DNA of 60,417 nt from Methyloversatilis sp. (GTDB lineage Bacteria > Pseudomonadota > Gammaproteobacteria > Burkholderiales > Rhodocyclaceae): the NCBI RefSeq assembly GCF_030696805.1, contig NZ_JAUYRO010000052.1, positions 1 to 60,417 on the forward strand, in the 5' to 3' direction. How positions within the stretch are numbered: position 1 is the stretch's first letter; the number at the start of each line of letters is the position of its first letter. Below are positions 9,466-45,800 of the stretch, one piece after another. Below the pieces are notes generated by a model. It did no database searches and was not told the origin of the DNA. It saw only the letters and a list, made by a program, of their open reading frames with translations. Made by a program: the position numbers and the translations under genes.

Positions 9466-9514
9466 GATGCGTTCAACCTGAAAACCTCATTTGATCGACG
9501 CCATGGGTAAGGGT

Positions 9515-9593
9515 GGCGGGGTGCACGGCAAGGCGCGAGGACGCGGCAGGATGGCTCCCTGCAAGGACGAGCAACGCAGCCGGGCACCCCGCC
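9515..9593 (+). other. structured repeat motif, copy A
   Basis: A foldable 79-nt motif lies in the 299-base gap between yegD-like and dedA-like genes. The outer stem GGCGGGGTGC (9515-9524) pairs perfectly with GCACCCCGCC (9584-9593). Inside lies AAGGCGCG (9530-9537), a short hairpin with loop TGGC, and GCAACGCAG (9571-9579). The same layout with different but still paired stems occurs twice inside the nifD-nifK spacer element. Whether it acts as RNA or DNA is unknown. Confidence 0.6.
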
Positions 9594-9764
9594 GGCCGTG
9601 CACAGGGCGGCGAAGCGCGCTCACCCTGAGGGCGAAGGCCGGGCGAAAGCAGGAAAGTTGCAAGGGCAATGTCTTCCATCGATGTTTCAAGCGATCAACT
9701 GAGGTCTTCAGGTTCAGTGCATGGACAACACGGGCGCGCAGCCTACGGCGCTGCGCAGGCCGGG

Positions 9765-39465: not shown

Positions 39466-39481
39466 TGGCACGGCAGTTGCT
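39466..39481 (+). promoter_or_regulatory. sigma-54 promoter of nifHDK
   Basis: TGGCACGGCAGTTGCT is a perfect RpoN consensus (TGGCAC, GG-N10-GC, TTGCT). It leaves an untranslated leader of about 140 bases before nifH. Confidence 0.92.
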
Positions 39482-40626: not shown

Positions 40627-42081
40627 ATGAGCATGACGATTGACGAAAAGAAGGCCCAGAACGCAGCTCTCATCGAAGAGGTGCTGAAGGCCTACCCGGA
40701 AAAGACTGCCAAGAAGCGGGCCAAGCACCTCAATGTTCACGAGGAAGGCAAGCCTGACTGCGGCGTCAAGTCGAACATCAAGTCGCTGCCCGGCGTGATG
40801 ACGATACGTGGCTGCGCCTACGCAGGTTCCAAGGGCGTGGTGTGGGGTCCGATCAAGGACATGATCCACATTTCGCACGGCCCGGTCGGCTGTGGCCAGT
40901 ATTCATGGGCTGCGCGACGCAATTACTACATCGGCGTGACCGGTGTGGACACCTTCGTGACGATGCAATTCACCTCCGACTTCCAGGAGAAGGACATCGT
41001 TTTCGGCGGCGACAAGAAGCTGGAAGTCATCATGGATGAGATCCAGGACCTGTTCCCGCTGAACAAGGGCATCACCGTGCAGTCCGAGTGCCCGATCGGT
41101 CTGATCGGCGACGACATCGAGGCGGTGTCGAAGAAGAAGTCGAAGCAGTACGACGGTCACACCATTGTGCCGGTTCGCTGCGAAGGCTTCCGCGGCGTGT
41201 CGCAATCGCTCGGTCACCACATCGCCAATGACGCGATCCGCGACTGGGTGTTCGACAAGACCGAAGACAAGCGCCCCGACTTCGTGTCGACGCCGTACGA
41301 CGTGGCCATCATCGGCGACTACAACATCGGCGGCGATGCCTGGTCGAGTCGCATCCTGCTCGAAGAGATGGGTCTGCGCGTGATCGCCCAGTGGTCGGGC
41401 GACGGCACCATCGCCGAGCTGGAAAACACTCCGAAGGCCAAGCTCAACGTGCTGCACTGCTACCGCTCGATGAACTACATCAGCCGGCACATGGAAGAGA
41501 AGTACGGGGTGCCCTGGGTCGAGTACAACTTCTTCGGCCCGACCAAGATCGAAGAGTCGCTGCGCGAAATCGCTGCGCACTTCGACGACACGATCAAGGC
41601 CAACGCCGAGAAAGTGATCGCCAAGTACAAGCCGCTGATGCAGGCCGTCATCGACAAGTACCGTCCGCGTCTCGAAGGCAAGAAGGTGATGCTGTTCGTC
41701 GGCGGCCTGCGCCCGCGTCACGTCATCGGCGCCTACGAAGATCTGGGCATGGAAGTGGTCGGAACCGGCTATGAATTCGGCCACAACGACGACTACCAGC
41801 GCACCACGCACTACGTGAAGGACGGCACGCTGATCTATGACGACGTCACCGGTCACGAGTTCGAGAAGTTCGTCGAGAAGGTGAAGCCTGACCTGGTGGG
41901 TTCCGGCATCAAGGAAAAGTACGTATTCCAGAAGATGGGCGTGCCTTTCCGCCAGATGCACAGCTGGGACTACTCGGGTCCGTATCACGGCTACGACGGT
42001 TTCGCGATCTTCGCCCGCGACATGGACATGGCGATCAGCTCGCCCATCTGGGGCCTGTCGAAGACGCCCTGGAAGAAGTAA
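40627..42081 (+). CDS. nifD: nitrogenase molybdenum-iron protein alpha chain NifD
   Basis: The 484-residue alpha subunit. P-cluster Cys are 63 (RGCAYAG), 89 ([10 protein letters not shown]) and 155 ([11 protein letters not shown]); FeMo-co ligands are Cys278 (LHCYRSMNY) and His445 ([12 protein letters not shown]). Val and His near the cofactor ([17 protein letters not shown]) match Mo-type NifD, not VnfD or AnfD. The start [11 protein letters not shown] follows CAGGAG. It is followed by an unusual 388-base spacer before nifK. Confidence 0.98.
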
Positions 42082-42133
42082 GCATCTGCAGTGAAACGGG
42101 GTCTGCTGACAATTGATTCGTCCGCCGCGTTGC

Positions 42134-42222
42134 CGTTGAGCCGATCGCGAACAAGGCGCGCGACGCAGCCGAGACTGGCCGTCTCGGCAAGAAGCGCAAC
42201 GCAGGGCGCGGGCGGCTCAACG
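42134..42222 (+). other. structured repeat motif, copy B
   Basis: The outer stem CGTTGAGCCG pairs with CGGCTCAACG (42213-42222), followed by a 2x2 mismatch and a CGCG/CGCG pair. Conserved AAGGCGCG (42153-42160) and GCAACGCAG (42196-42204) flank a hairpin GCCGAGAC-TGGCC-GTCTCGGC. It shares the layout of copy A at 9515-9593. Confidence 0.65.
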
Positions 42223-42234
42223 ACAACCCGAAGG

Positions 42235-42335
42235 GCACAGGCCGGGCGGCGTCCATGGCGGCGTTGCACCTCCTGACCTGACGGCCAGTCAGGCTGCGTC
42301 GGCGCGCCTTGCCATGGACGCCGCCCGGCCTGTGC
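42235..42335 (-). other. structured repeat motif, copy C
   Basis: A perfect 25-bp stem (42235-42259 with 42311-42335) encloses 51 bases which, read on the minus strand, are AAGGCGCG, CGACGCAGCC, a hairpin TGAC-TGGCC-GTCA, and GTGCAACGCC. It is the same motif as copy B with a different outer stem, inverted relative to it. Confidence 0.65.
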
Positions 42336-42469
42336 GCGACGGACGAATCAATTGTCAGCAGACCCCAGGGTGGGCCGAGGGCACCGAAACCCACCACGAA
42401 CGACCCGCGTGTCGACGGGCCAGGTGGCTTGATGCTGCCGGCCCACCCTACATCAAGGAGCTATCAACC

Positions 42470-44029
42470 ATGCCTCAATCAGCCGACAAAATTCTCGACC
42501 ACGAACTGCTCTTCCGCGAGCCCGAGTACCAGAAGATGCTCGCGGACAAGAAGTCCGAATTCGAGTTCAACCATGCCGACAACAAGATCCAGGAAATCGT
42601 CGAATGGACGAAGACCGAGGATTACAAACAGAAGAACTTCGCCCGCGAAGCGCTCACCGTCAATCCGGCCAAGGCCTGCCAGCCGCTGGGCGCGGTCTAC
42701 GTCGCCAACGGCTTCGCCAAGACCCTGTCGTTCGTGCACGGCTCGCAGGGCTGTGTTGCCTACTACCGTTCGCACTTCTCGCGCCACTTTAAGGAACCGA
42801 CTTCGTGCGTGTCCTCGTCGATGACCGAAGACGCGGCCGTGTTCGGCGGTCTGAACAACATGATCGACGGCCTGGCCAACACGCTCAACCTGTACAAGCC
42901 GGAAATGATCGCGGTGTCGACCACCTGCATGGCGGAAGTCATCGGTGACGACCTGAACGCCTTCATCAAGACCTCGAAGGAAAAAGGCAGCGTGCCGGCC
43001 GACTTCGACGTGCCGTTCGCCCACACCCCGGCCTTCGTCGGCAGCCACATCACCGGCTACGACAATGCGCTGCTCGGCATCGTGCGCCACTTCTGGGACG
43101 GCAAGGCAGACACCGCACCGAAGCTCGAGCGCGTACCCGACGAGTCGATCAACTTCATTTTCGGCTTCGACGGGTTCGTCGTCGGCAACATGAAGGAAAT
43201 GAAGCGCATCCTCGGTTTGTTCGGCATCGACTACAACATCATCTGCGATCCGTCGGAAGTGTGGAACACGCCGACCGACGGCGAGTTCCGCATGTATGAA
43301 GGCGGCACGACCAAAGCCACCGTCGAGCGCGCGCTCAACGCCAAGGCCACCATCATCTTCCAGGAATTCTGCTGCGAGAAGACCGCAAAGTTCATCGCCG
43401 ACCACGGTCAGGAAGTGGTCAAGCTGAACAGCCCGATCGGCGTCGCCGGCACCGACAAGTTCCTGATGGAACTGTCGCGCATCACGGGCAAGCCGATCCC
43501 GGCCGAACTCGAGCTGGAGCGCGGCCAGCTGGTCGACGCGATGGCCGACAGCCAGGCTCACCTGCACGGCAAGCGCTACGCCATGTACGGCGACCCGGAC
43601 ATGATGCTCGGCCTGACCGAATTCCTGCTGGAACTCGGTGCTGAGCCGGCACACATCCTGGCCACCAACGGCGAGAAGGAGTGGGCGAAGAGGGTGCAGG
43701 AGGTACTGGACGCGTCGCCCTACGGTGCCGGCTGCAAGGTGTACCCGAAGCGAGACCTTTGGCACATGCGTTCGCTGCTCTTCACCGAGCCGGTGGACTT
43801 CCTGATCGGCAACACCTACGGCAAGTACCTCGAGCGCGACACCGGAACACCACTGATCCGCATGGTGTTCCCGATCTTCGATCGCCACCACTACCACCGC
43901 TACCCGATCTGGGGTTACGAAGGCGGCCTGCGCGTGCTGGTCATGCTGCTGGACGAGTTCTTCGAGTCCATCGACGTGAACACGATCGTCGCCGGCAAGA
44001 CCGACTACTCGTACGACATCATCCGCTGA
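42470..44029 (+). CDS. nifK: nitrogenase molybdenum-iron protein beta chain NifK
   Basis: The 519-residue beta subunit. P-cluster Cys are at 70 (AKACQPLGA), 95 (GSQGCVAYY) and 153 ([12 protein letters not shown]), the same numbers as in Azotobacter NifK. The N-terminal extension (about residues 1-60) wraps the alpha chain. The start [10 protein letters not shown] follows CAAGGAG, which lies outside the inverted-repeat element. A strong terminator follows the stop. Confidence 0.98.
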
Positions 44030-44107: not shown

Positions 44108-44131
44108 CCATCACGACGAAGCCACGGCGGG

Positions 44132-44329
44132 TGTTGGGCATCGCTGCGCTCACCCCAACCTACGGACCACGCGGTTTCGGGTGAGCCAGAGCCGATGCCC
44201 GGCCACCCCGCATTCCGCGATCCACCGTAGGTTGGGGTGAGCCGAAGGCGATGCCCAACACCCACCCGCCACCTCGCATCCCACCCGACACACCCCGTAG
44301 GTCGGGTGAGCAAAAGGCGATTCCCGACA
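44132..44329. repeat. REP cluster between nifK and the RAYT gene
   Basis: A reverse consensus copy (44132-44163), a forward copy of the GCCGAAGGC loop type (44227-44260) and a divergent forward copy GTAGGTCGGG (44297-44329) fill the 248 bases between the nifHDK terminator and the RAYT gene. The 23 bases after the first copy (from ACCACGCGGTTTCGGGTGAG) recur after a copy near 45585, so copies moved or duplicated with flanks. Confidence 0.82.
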
Positions 44330-44355
44330 CCAAATCTGATCCGGCGGCACCCACC

Positions 44356-44883
44356 TCATTCCCCGAACCGGCCTTCGACCGGCGAACCCTCGCCGCCCCA
44401 GTCAGCAGGCAGGATACCCCGCTCGACATAGCGGTGAAACGACGAATGCGGCCAGTCGGCGACGCGGGAGACCAGCCCGTGTTTCACCGGGTTGAAGTGG
44501 ATGTAGTCGACGTGGCGCGCGTAATCGTCGTCGTCGCGAACCAGGTGTTCCCAGTAGCGTCGCTGCCACACGCCGCGCTCACCCTTGCGGGCGCGGCTGG
44601 CGTCTATCGTTTCGTCGCGCGGCAGGGCGCGCGAGAAGGCCGCCTTGACCAGCATCCAGCGTGTCGCGTAGTCGGCATCGCCGGTCGGGAGCGTCCACAA
44701 CATGTGCAGATGATCCGGCAGGACAACAGCCGCATCGATGTGGAAGGGGTGGTGCAACGCCGTGACGCGAACGGCCTTGCGCAGCGCCCCTATGTGGCGA
44801 AGCAGCAGACCGGATGACCGGTCGGCCAACGCCAGCGTAAAGAAGAAGGTCGCGCCGGGGGCGGACGAACGACGGTAGCGCAT
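44356..44883 (-). CDS. REP-associated tyrosine transposase (RAYT)
   Basis: A 175-residue single-domain HUH-family transposase related to IS200/IS605 TnpA. The HUH pair is HLH at residues 58-60 (LPDHLHMLWTLP), and the catalytic Tyr is probably Tyr127 in VDYIHFNPVKHGLV. RAYTs act on GTAG-headed REP hairpins, and such hairpins flank this gene on both sides. The start MRYRRSSAPG was chosen because the upstream part of the open frame (from 44973) is a translation of a REP. It could be a domesticated single-copy gene. Confidence 0.88.
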   Translation of the reverse strand: MRYRRSSAPGATFFFTLALADRSSGLLLRHIGALRKAVRVTALHHPFHIDAAVVLPDHLHMLWTLPTGDADYATRWMLVKAAFSRALPRDETIDASRARKGERGVWQRRYWEHLVRDDDDYARHVDYIHFNPVKHGLVSRVADWPHSSFHRYVERGILPADWGGEGSPVEGRFGE

Positions 44884-44951
44884 CGGGCAATGATAAATGC
44901 ATCGACTGCGTTTGGCATACTGGATGTATGGGCATCGCGGAATAACGTTCG

Positions 44952-45025
44952 TGTTGGGCATCGCTGCGCTCACCCCAACCTACGGCGCATCCCGTAGGTT
45001 GGGGTGAGCGCAGCGATGCCCAACA
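44952..45025. repeat. inverted REP pair upstream of the RAYT gene
   Basis: A reverse copy (44952-44983) and a forward copy (44994-45025), both consensus, are separated by 10 bases. They form a large outward palindrome just before the RAYT start, the arrangement (BIME) seen around RAYT genes elsewhere. Confidence 0.87.
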
Positions 45026-45140
45026 CCGCAACGTCGCTCGGCGCAACACCCGACCACACGCCGATCCGGTATCGATTTTGCTCGTGCATGGTATCCGGCC
45101 CGCCGGGTCGGAAAACCTACAGTGTTCCCGGGAGAACGAC

Positions 45141-45458
45141 ATGGCTTTTCAGCCGTTGTGCAAAAGCAACCTGCTCTATGAGGGCGAACTCGTGCCGTGC
45201 ATCGTGGGCAAGACGGAAGTCGTGGTGATGTGGCCGGAGGGCGGCCGGCCGCGCGCTTTCGACGCCGCCTGTCCGCATGACGACGTGTCGCTTGCGCGCG
45301 GCGTGTTCAGCGGCCACACCCTGACTTGCATCGCCCACGGCTGGGTGTTCGACGGTCACACCGGCGAGGGCGTGGCGCCCGAAGGTTGCGCGATGCAGGA
45401 GTACCCGATACGCCTGGTCGATGGCGTGGTCGAGATTGATCTTGACGACGAAGATTGA
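45141..45458 (+). CDS. Rieske-type [2Fe-2S] protein
   Basis: A 105-residue Rieske ferredoxin, NirD/BphA3-like. Cluster ligands are Cys44-x-His46 (ACPHDD) and Cys63-x2-His66 (CIAHGW). It begins MAFQPLCKSN after GGGAGAACGAC. It stands alone between REP clusters. Rieske ferredoxins occur in several nif regions and may carry electrons; the specific partner is unknown. No convincing sigma-54 site precedes it. Confidence 0.88.
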   Translation: MAFQPLCKSNLLYEGELVPCIVGKTEVVVMWPEGGRPRAFDAACPHDDVSLARGVFSGHTLTCIAHGWVFDGHTGEGVAPEGCAMQEYPIRLVDGVVEIDLDDED

Positions 45459-45483
45459 GGTGGTCGGGGGGGTTGAGGGCGGG

Positions 45484-45723
45484 TGTTGGGCATCGCTGCG
45501 CTCACCCCAACCTACGGGCGGGTGAACGCGCGGGGTGCGGATGACGTGTTGTTGGGCATCGCTGCGCTCACCCCAACCTACGAACCACGCGGTTTCGGGT
45601 GAGCCGGAGACGACACGCAACACCCGCCAGCCCCCCCGTAGGCGATGCCCGACACCACCCAGCGCCGCCCGATGCAACCCGCCCCATCCCCGTAGGTTGG
45701 GGTGAGCGCAGCGATGCCCAACA
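45484..45723. repeat. REP cluster between the Rieske gene and nifF
   Basis: Two reverse consensus copies (45484-45515, 45550-45581) and one forward copy (45692-45723) lie in the 342-base gap 45459-45800 between the convergent Rieske and nifF genes. Truncated remnants are visible near 45638-45655 and 45752-45781. No gene is seen here. Confidence 0.83.
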
Positions 45724-45800
45724 CCCCGCGTCGGCCAAAGCACCCGACCCGCCGCGCAGGTCGGGCTGAACGCAAAGATGCCCTGTCCGCGCGGCCTCGA

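Follow-up and report, generated by a model that had tools for sequence, protein, structure and literature searches.

An inverted-repeat element between nifD and nifK of a Methyloversatilis genome carries folded modules that recur behind differing ends

The spacer between nifD and nifK in Methyloversatilis sp. holds a 269-bp inverted-repeat element (MITE) with two hairpins, which carry the same 51-nt motif in opposite orientations. Taken as a whole, the locus is, with high confidence, best explained as a MITE that entered at a TA dinucleotide, was presumably mobilised by an IS5-family transposase acting in trans, would be tolerated between the two cistrons, could be cut by RNase III in the transcript, and contains modules that are themselves probably under selection. 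The DNA examined is one contig (NZ_JAUYRO010000052.1, 60,417 nucleotides, here called the window) of a 4.19-Mb draft genome in 123 contigs.

Organization of the nifD-nifK spacer

The nif features of the window are, by position and strand:
39466-39481, + strand: sigma-54-type (nif) promoter site, a perfect consensus match, upstream of the presumed nifH ORF
40627-42081, + strand: nifD, the upstream cistron (TIGR01282, E 5.5e-267)
42098-42366, no strand assigned: inverted-repeat element (MITE), 269 bp (terminal repeats, empty sites, family copies)
42367-42449, + strand: native spacer hairpin, AGGGTGGGCCG ... CGGCCCACCCT (genus relatives and RNA fold)
42455-42472, + strand: Shine-Dalgarno-like region and start codon of nifK, retained (sequence)
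42470-44029, + strand: nifK, the downstream cistron (TIGR01286, E 1.6e-246)

The encoded NifK is 92-97% identical to Methyloversatilis records, and a record labelled Gammaproteobacteria bacterium (L069) is also close (96%). A first-pass annotation of this DNA had called the 388-bp nifD-nifK spacer unusually long, and it is: 82 other spacers, those of the genus included, measured 17-150 bp. The survey took in 89 loci, with some genomes represented twice; six gave no value in the first pass, of which five lie on the opposite strand and were measured separately and one (L106) has no nifD match.

The same annotation had described a 269-bp inverted-repeat element with two large inner hairpins. Its outline is confirmed at 42098-42366, where 32-nt arms separated by 205 nt are complementary at 31 of 32 positions (97%), and both hairpins are borne out, with stems at 42129-42143/42213-42227 and 42235-42259/42311-42335. 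Its parts are:
42098-42129, + strand: left terminal inverted repeat, 32 nt
42129-42143, + strand: outer stem of hairpin 1, 5' arm (fold; partner 42213-42227)
42152-42202, + strand (sense): structured module M1, 51 nt (model R1, 73.3 bits; among the 22 training rows of the model)
42213-42227, + strand: outer stem of hairpin 1, 3' arm (fold)
42235-42259, + strand: outer stem of hairpin 2, 5' arm (fold; partner 42311-42335)
42261-42311, - strand: structured module M2, 51 nt, inverted relative to M1 (model R1, 70.8 bits; likewise a training row)
42311-42335, + strand: outer stem of hairpin 2, 3' arm (fold)
42335-42366, - strand: right terminal inverted repeat, 32 nt

M1 and M2 are 109 bases apart, start to start. 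RNA folding of the spacer reaches -250.1 kcal/mol against -169.2 +/- 6.2 in 100 shuffles and predicts the three-way structure that had been proposed for the transcript; folded as DNA, the element has z = -13.6, with none of 200 shuffles equal. At just 269 bp it has no transposase gene of its own, and the overlapping ORFs extend into neighbouring sequence. Rfam gave no gathering-level match in the window and six weak, sub-gathering matches in the spacer, P37 among them (22.2 bits against a gathering threshold of 50).

Empty sites and target sequence

Among 13 Methyloversatilis genomes, nine encode NifK, and the spacers of all eight others besides the host are empty sites of 110-121 bp (121 bp in L068). 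The best empty site reads ...GTGAAACG-TA-GGGTGGGTTG..., and the filled site ...GTGAAACG-[GGGTCTG...CAGACCC]-CA-GGGTGGGCCG.... Based on this comparison, the actual inserted unit is probably GGGTCTG...CAGACCC at 42099-42365, with the outermost G/C forming the edge of a damaged TA target. Since L067 and L068 have empty sites while being closely similar to the host at the DNA level in nifD (96-97%) and nifK (93-95%), the insertion appears confined to the host's lineage within Methyloversatilis. The native hairpin of the spacer is present in all eight other nif-bearing genus genomes examined, which lack the element; in the host the element lies at the hairpin's 5' edge. Relative to the nearest empty site, the hairpin has T-to-C changes beside the insertion (GGGTGGGTTG to GGGTGGGCCG) that would convert G-U to G-C pairs.

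The nif site lacks the left TA, and its right TA reads CA, so that the duplication is not intact there and we infer it from sister copies. Three of these (L002, L006, L008) have clean orthologous empty sites with a single TA, a 2-bp target, and their filled sites are bordered on each side by TA or by a form of it with one base changed (CA, TG); from these alignments, this is a TA target with partly decayed duplicates. At a fourth copy, L019, relatives have no TA at the site. For this comparison ten joined flank sets were built, eight were searched (all but L028 and L027) and seven were aligned (all of these but L015), and the alignments of L003, L005 and L016 were unreadable for the target site.

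A dispersed family with a candidate transposase

Searching the host genome with the element gave 10 match rows (70-100% identity); two of them are the nif element, once on each strand, and the other eight fall in seven other places. Across 61 genomes the element has matches in 14, of which 11 belong to the genus, and family elements with paired ends (found with at most four mismatches) span 60-267 bp. Within the nif contig the end pattern matches the nif element alone. No match to a 23-base end pattern with at most one mismatch was found in 368 other genomes of the class; shorter stretches of similar end sequence do occur beyond Methyloversatilis, such as AGGGTCTGTTGACAT in L285. A plasmid collection gave two weak partial matches to the element and a phage collection none; nor did any plasmid match the stretches taken from L305, L309 and L317.

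Searching for a source of mobility, we scanned 30 of the 48 match rows for DDE_Tnp_1 (PF01609), and L239 alone had family ends on both sides; several other PF01609 loci had loose end matches that do not pair as ends. L239:1475-2381, from another genome of the genus (G008), is a 907-bp element with TA on both flanks and ends GGGTCTGTTCTCA / GGGCGTGTTCTCA. Its two ORFs match positions 2-115 and 116-258 of NF033580 (IS5 family), as well as DUF4096 and DDE_Tnp_1, a layout in two frames that is usual in the IS427 group. Because the ends of this autonomous-type IS5-family element resemble those of the MITE family, we regard it as a candidate transposase source. In the host's own draft assembly (123 contigs) none of three PF01609 matches was an IS5_3-type element, and inspection by eye of ten 4-kb stretches around single-ended matches, covering the starts of up to four of the largest ORFs in each, recognised no transposase as an autonomous partner. 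An IS630-type transposase (PF13358) was rejected: it has matches in 2 of the 13 genus genomes, neither locus has family-like ends, and the own-genome match has stops in frame. The L239 element and an own-genome MITE copy, L003:1449-1715, share their right junction at one TA and differ in their left flanks, which suggests a preferred site or a rearrangement.

Four findings thus support the earlier suggestion of a mobile element: the empty sites, the dispersed related copies, the TA target seen at three of them, and the candidate IS5-family relative, whose ends are similar. Like an IS5-family-derived MITE (NF033580, DUF4096 plus DDE), the nif element has matching ends (GGGTCTGTTCTCA...) and is shorter than 300 bp, and its family is non-coding and dispersed, with a TA target at three sister copies. 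The likeness to the IS is limited to the ends, whereas the inside is a conserved double module unseen in the IS and shared with elements that have other ends.

A wholly different source would be a REP/BIME-type palindrome moved by a REP-associated tyrosine transposase (RAYT), for which a gene lies downstream of nifK:
44356-44973, - strand: RAYT gene (NF047646, E 4.2e-58)
REP-like repeats are also common in the window, yet those near this RAYT are a different sequence, GTAGGTTGGGGTGAGC, and within the contig the end pattern occurs at the nif element alone. Among 18 further Y1_Tnp loci, which exclude the window RAYT, none has paired family-like ends, and three (L263, L265, L270) have one loose single match each. 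The 32-bp terminal repeats of the element and the TA duplication at three sister copies also speak against such an origin, and with no RAYT flanked by the same repeat among the loci scanned we give it almost no credence. In the region 44124-45731 the RAYT gene sits amid the GTAGGTTGGGGTGAGC repeats, the first 15 bases of which (at most two mismatches) occur in 20 copies in the window.

Known small repeats offer partial parallels. REP, BIME and GTAG palindromes with RAYT, in the sections of PMC3733652 consulted, are likewise palindromic repeats with G-T pairs in their stems; the nif element differs from them in its long terminal repeats, its length of about 267 bp and its TA target. The Chunjie MITE of Geobacter uraniireducens, in the portion of PMC10969869 that treats it, is of similar size (235 bp) and inserted in an operon; its host is different, and it is likened here by description rather than by sequence. 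Correia/NEMIS and ERIC elements, from the same portion of that source, are small inverted-repeat elements with transcripts reported to be processed or destabilised. They too are likened by description, not sequence, and no sigma-70-like promoter was found in the nif element. The Pae-1 double-hairpin family of Pseudomonas aeruginosa, in the part of PMC2267715 that lists it, also has an adjacent stem-loop pair, although its listed length of 84 is unlike that of the nif element; this comparison again was made by description and not by sequence.

Covariation and distribution of the inner modules

The 51-nt motif shows strong covariation. In an alignment of 22 copies, 12 of 13 pairs have two-sided change, none of 500 shuffles did as well on any of five measures, and the covariation score is 0.567, a value that slid partners do not approach (0.139 at most). 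In 108 distinct rows, in an alignment fitted to the covariance model, there are 388 two-sided cells against 130 +/- 11 when shuffled; four of the five measures beat every shuffle, while the fifth, the count of pairs that change on both sides, has reached saturation (12, with a shuffled value of 11.4 and shuffles as good in 247 of 500).

The covariance model R1, whose training set comes mostly from Methyloversatilis and whose E-values are rough, has matches at E <= 0.001 in 30 of 81 related genomes; within Methyloversatilis these are 11 of 13, elsewhere 19 of 68. Across the class it matches 57 of 369 genomes, the host included, in 50 of 272 genera. Among the matches listed, those in related genomes and class-wide score at least 39 bits, and in 709,897 bases of 80 nif loci, taken as background, nothing exceeded 24.7 bits. 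Searches of open-access literature and Rfam found no description of the motif, and the module strings as text were unmatched. One genome, G283, has at least 16 R1 matches, many with identical scores, which may reflect recent amplification; an element in it (L305:1321-1606) has the ends of a different IS5-family type.

A rival to selection on the folded strand is that covariation merely records homogenisation of the palindrome arms by intramolecular template switching. The nif arms lend this some weight, as they match each other yet differ from other own-genome copies at the same positions, and template switching would yield arms changed alike in this way. However, bases predicted to be unpaired are conserved across elements as well. 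In 64 non-redundant modules, CAAG stands at the opening in 63 and AACGC at the close in 57, and every one of the 64 has a G two bases beyond the ACGC position; the inner loop is less constant, with CGCNG in 47 and AAG in 50. Nearly fixed module spacing, described below, also argues against homogenisation, which moreover predicts no strand preference.

Strand preference was measured on the outer stems, which are absent from the R1 model and were aligned with symmetric scoring. The measurement used 111 of 128 copies; set aside were copies flanked by fewer than 32 nt, copies identical to another, and those whose stem alignment scored below 8. On the module sense strand these 111 stems have 142 G-T mismatches against 54 A-C. 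In 62 non-redundant stems the counts are 73 and 23 (34 versus 10 copies, p 0.0004), and by module position the G-T:A-C counts are 17:4 in the first of a pair, 11:7 in the second and 45:12 in single modules. The excess comes from outside the genus, where 46 stems have 53 G-T against 13 A-C (28 versus 5 copies, p 0.00007), contrary to what homogenisation predicts. Within the genus, 16 stems have 20 against 10 and the difference is not significant (6 versus 5 copies, p = 1), as homogenisation would have it. The direction of the G-T excess is the one predicted by single-strand folding, as RNA or single-stranded DNA, and expected if the fold is selected; a strand-specific mutation bias may also be the source. 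Weighing these points, we consider homogenisation of the arms an unlikely though not negligible account of the covariation.

Paired modules behind differing ends

We surveyed the pairing of modules in 86 sources chosen as holding or possibly holding the element, of which 83 have a match and 43 a pair. These yield 37 distinct module pairs, 20 from Methyloversatilis and 17 from elsewhere, counting second modules down to 26.6 bits, near background. All 37 are convergent (+ then -), with a start-to-start distance of 109 in 24, of 105-110 in 36 and of 125 in one. In 29 class-wide loci a pair is found in just 9 at that threshold, and therefore single modules or diverged partners are common. One-module elements do exist, for example at 9475-9714 in the window. 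This second module-bearing inverted-repeat element is 240 bp long, has ends AACCTGAAAACCTCATTTGATCG and carries one module at 9529-9577 on the + strand (47.2 bits); ends similar to its own occur in a further Methyloversatilis, L293, and outside the genus in L024, L295, L322 and L331.

The ends around the modules vary within the genus (AGGGTCTGTTCTCA, AGGTCGTCCGAATCGC) and beyond it (AGAGCTCATTTCATAAATATTCG, AGGACTCGCTAATGGATAAG, CTAGTACTCTTTCAAGG, TAGGGAAACACTGATTAATG), where several are variants of the GGGTCTGTT type (L285); some loci, such as L298, L310 and L328, have no convincing ends. The TAGGGAAACACTGATTAATG ends match a second IS5-family type of Methyloversatilis, with ends TAGGGAAACACTGATTTAA and a protein that matches NF033581 (IS5 family, E 2.8e-96). 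Similar cores therefore lie behind the ends of at least two IS5-family types. As the convergent 51-nt pair recurs with differing ends across many Gammaproteobacteria (sensu GTDB), the modules themselves are probably under selection as a folded single strand.

A broader reading, which we hold tentatively as a real possibility, is that the nif insertion is a copy of an undescribed, widespread mobile class of the Gammaproteobacteria in which a portable folded core, selected as a single strand (RNA or single-stranded DNA), has been joined to various transposase ends. Such a core would consist of two convergent 51-nt modules with CAAG and CGCNG internal-loop bases, about 109 bp apart. The convergent layout places one sense module on each strand, and hence in each transcript through a two-module element in any orientation.

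Possible consequences for nif expression

As M1 is sense on the + strand, it would be present in a nif mRNA. Continuous nifHDK transcription through the element, as the first-pass annotation assumed, is plausible because a perfect sigma-54-type site lies upstream and neither a sigma-70-like site nor a terminator-like site on the + strand was found in 41900-42700; that region has two terminator-like sites on the - strand, both inside nifK. The upstream site (39466-39481) is the sole one without mismatch among 106 sigma-54-type matches to the consensus in the window, and the ORF downstream of it is presumably nifH. A putative sigma-54-like promoter in the spacer, at the left end (42092), was rejected: it has three mismatches, which is chance level in the window (106 matches with at most three mismatches against 133 expected by chance).

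The most economical view is that the insertion is tolerated and that its stems may be cut by RNase III. The MITE would be tolerated because it lies between cistrons and spares both the stop codon of nifD and the ribosome-binding site of nifK. Its long stems in the nifHDK mRNA would form double-stranded RNA, and RNase III could cut them, which would do little harm and leave nifHD and nifK on separate messages. The part of PMC10969869 that deals with these elements reports that RNase III cuts mRNAs carrying Correia elements, and it describes RNase E effects for ERIC.

Alternatively, the element could have been recruited as a regulator of the nifD:nifK message ratio, acting through processing, differential stability or partial polarity, one of the roles first proposed for it. 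The very stable fold within the predicted transcript would suit such a role, and MITE-mediated mRNA processing has precedent (same part of PMC10969869). In Anabaena variabilis, the processing site of nifH1 has a stem-loop that the relevant section of PMC4284476 ties to transcript half-life, citing the mutant data as unpublished. nifD-nifK spacers also fold somewhat better than shuffles in general: at z < -2 (40 shuffles each) stand 23 of 52 distinct spacers of at least 50 nt, or 22 of 51, with a mean z of about -1.75, when the window is left out. Many betaproteobacterial spacers (L067-L146) are among those that fold better than their shuffles, and the few sequences viewed seem unrelated. Against recruitment, the element is absent from all eight other nif-bearing genomes of the genus and so is not required for nif function there; the insertion is found in one genome, so that conservation over time cannot be demonstrated; and the spacer already had its native hairpin. 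Regulation of nifD:nifK by the element is thus possible but unsupported, and we judge it improbable.

Tolerated or not, the nif insertion is a natural test of a large folded insert between genes for subunits needed in equal amounts, with the empty sites of the genus as controls. The insides of MITEs are often taken for filler; here structure, spacing and unpaired bases appear conserved behind changing ends. This suggests a functional core that does not depend on the transposase, and makes the reason for which the fold is kept testable.
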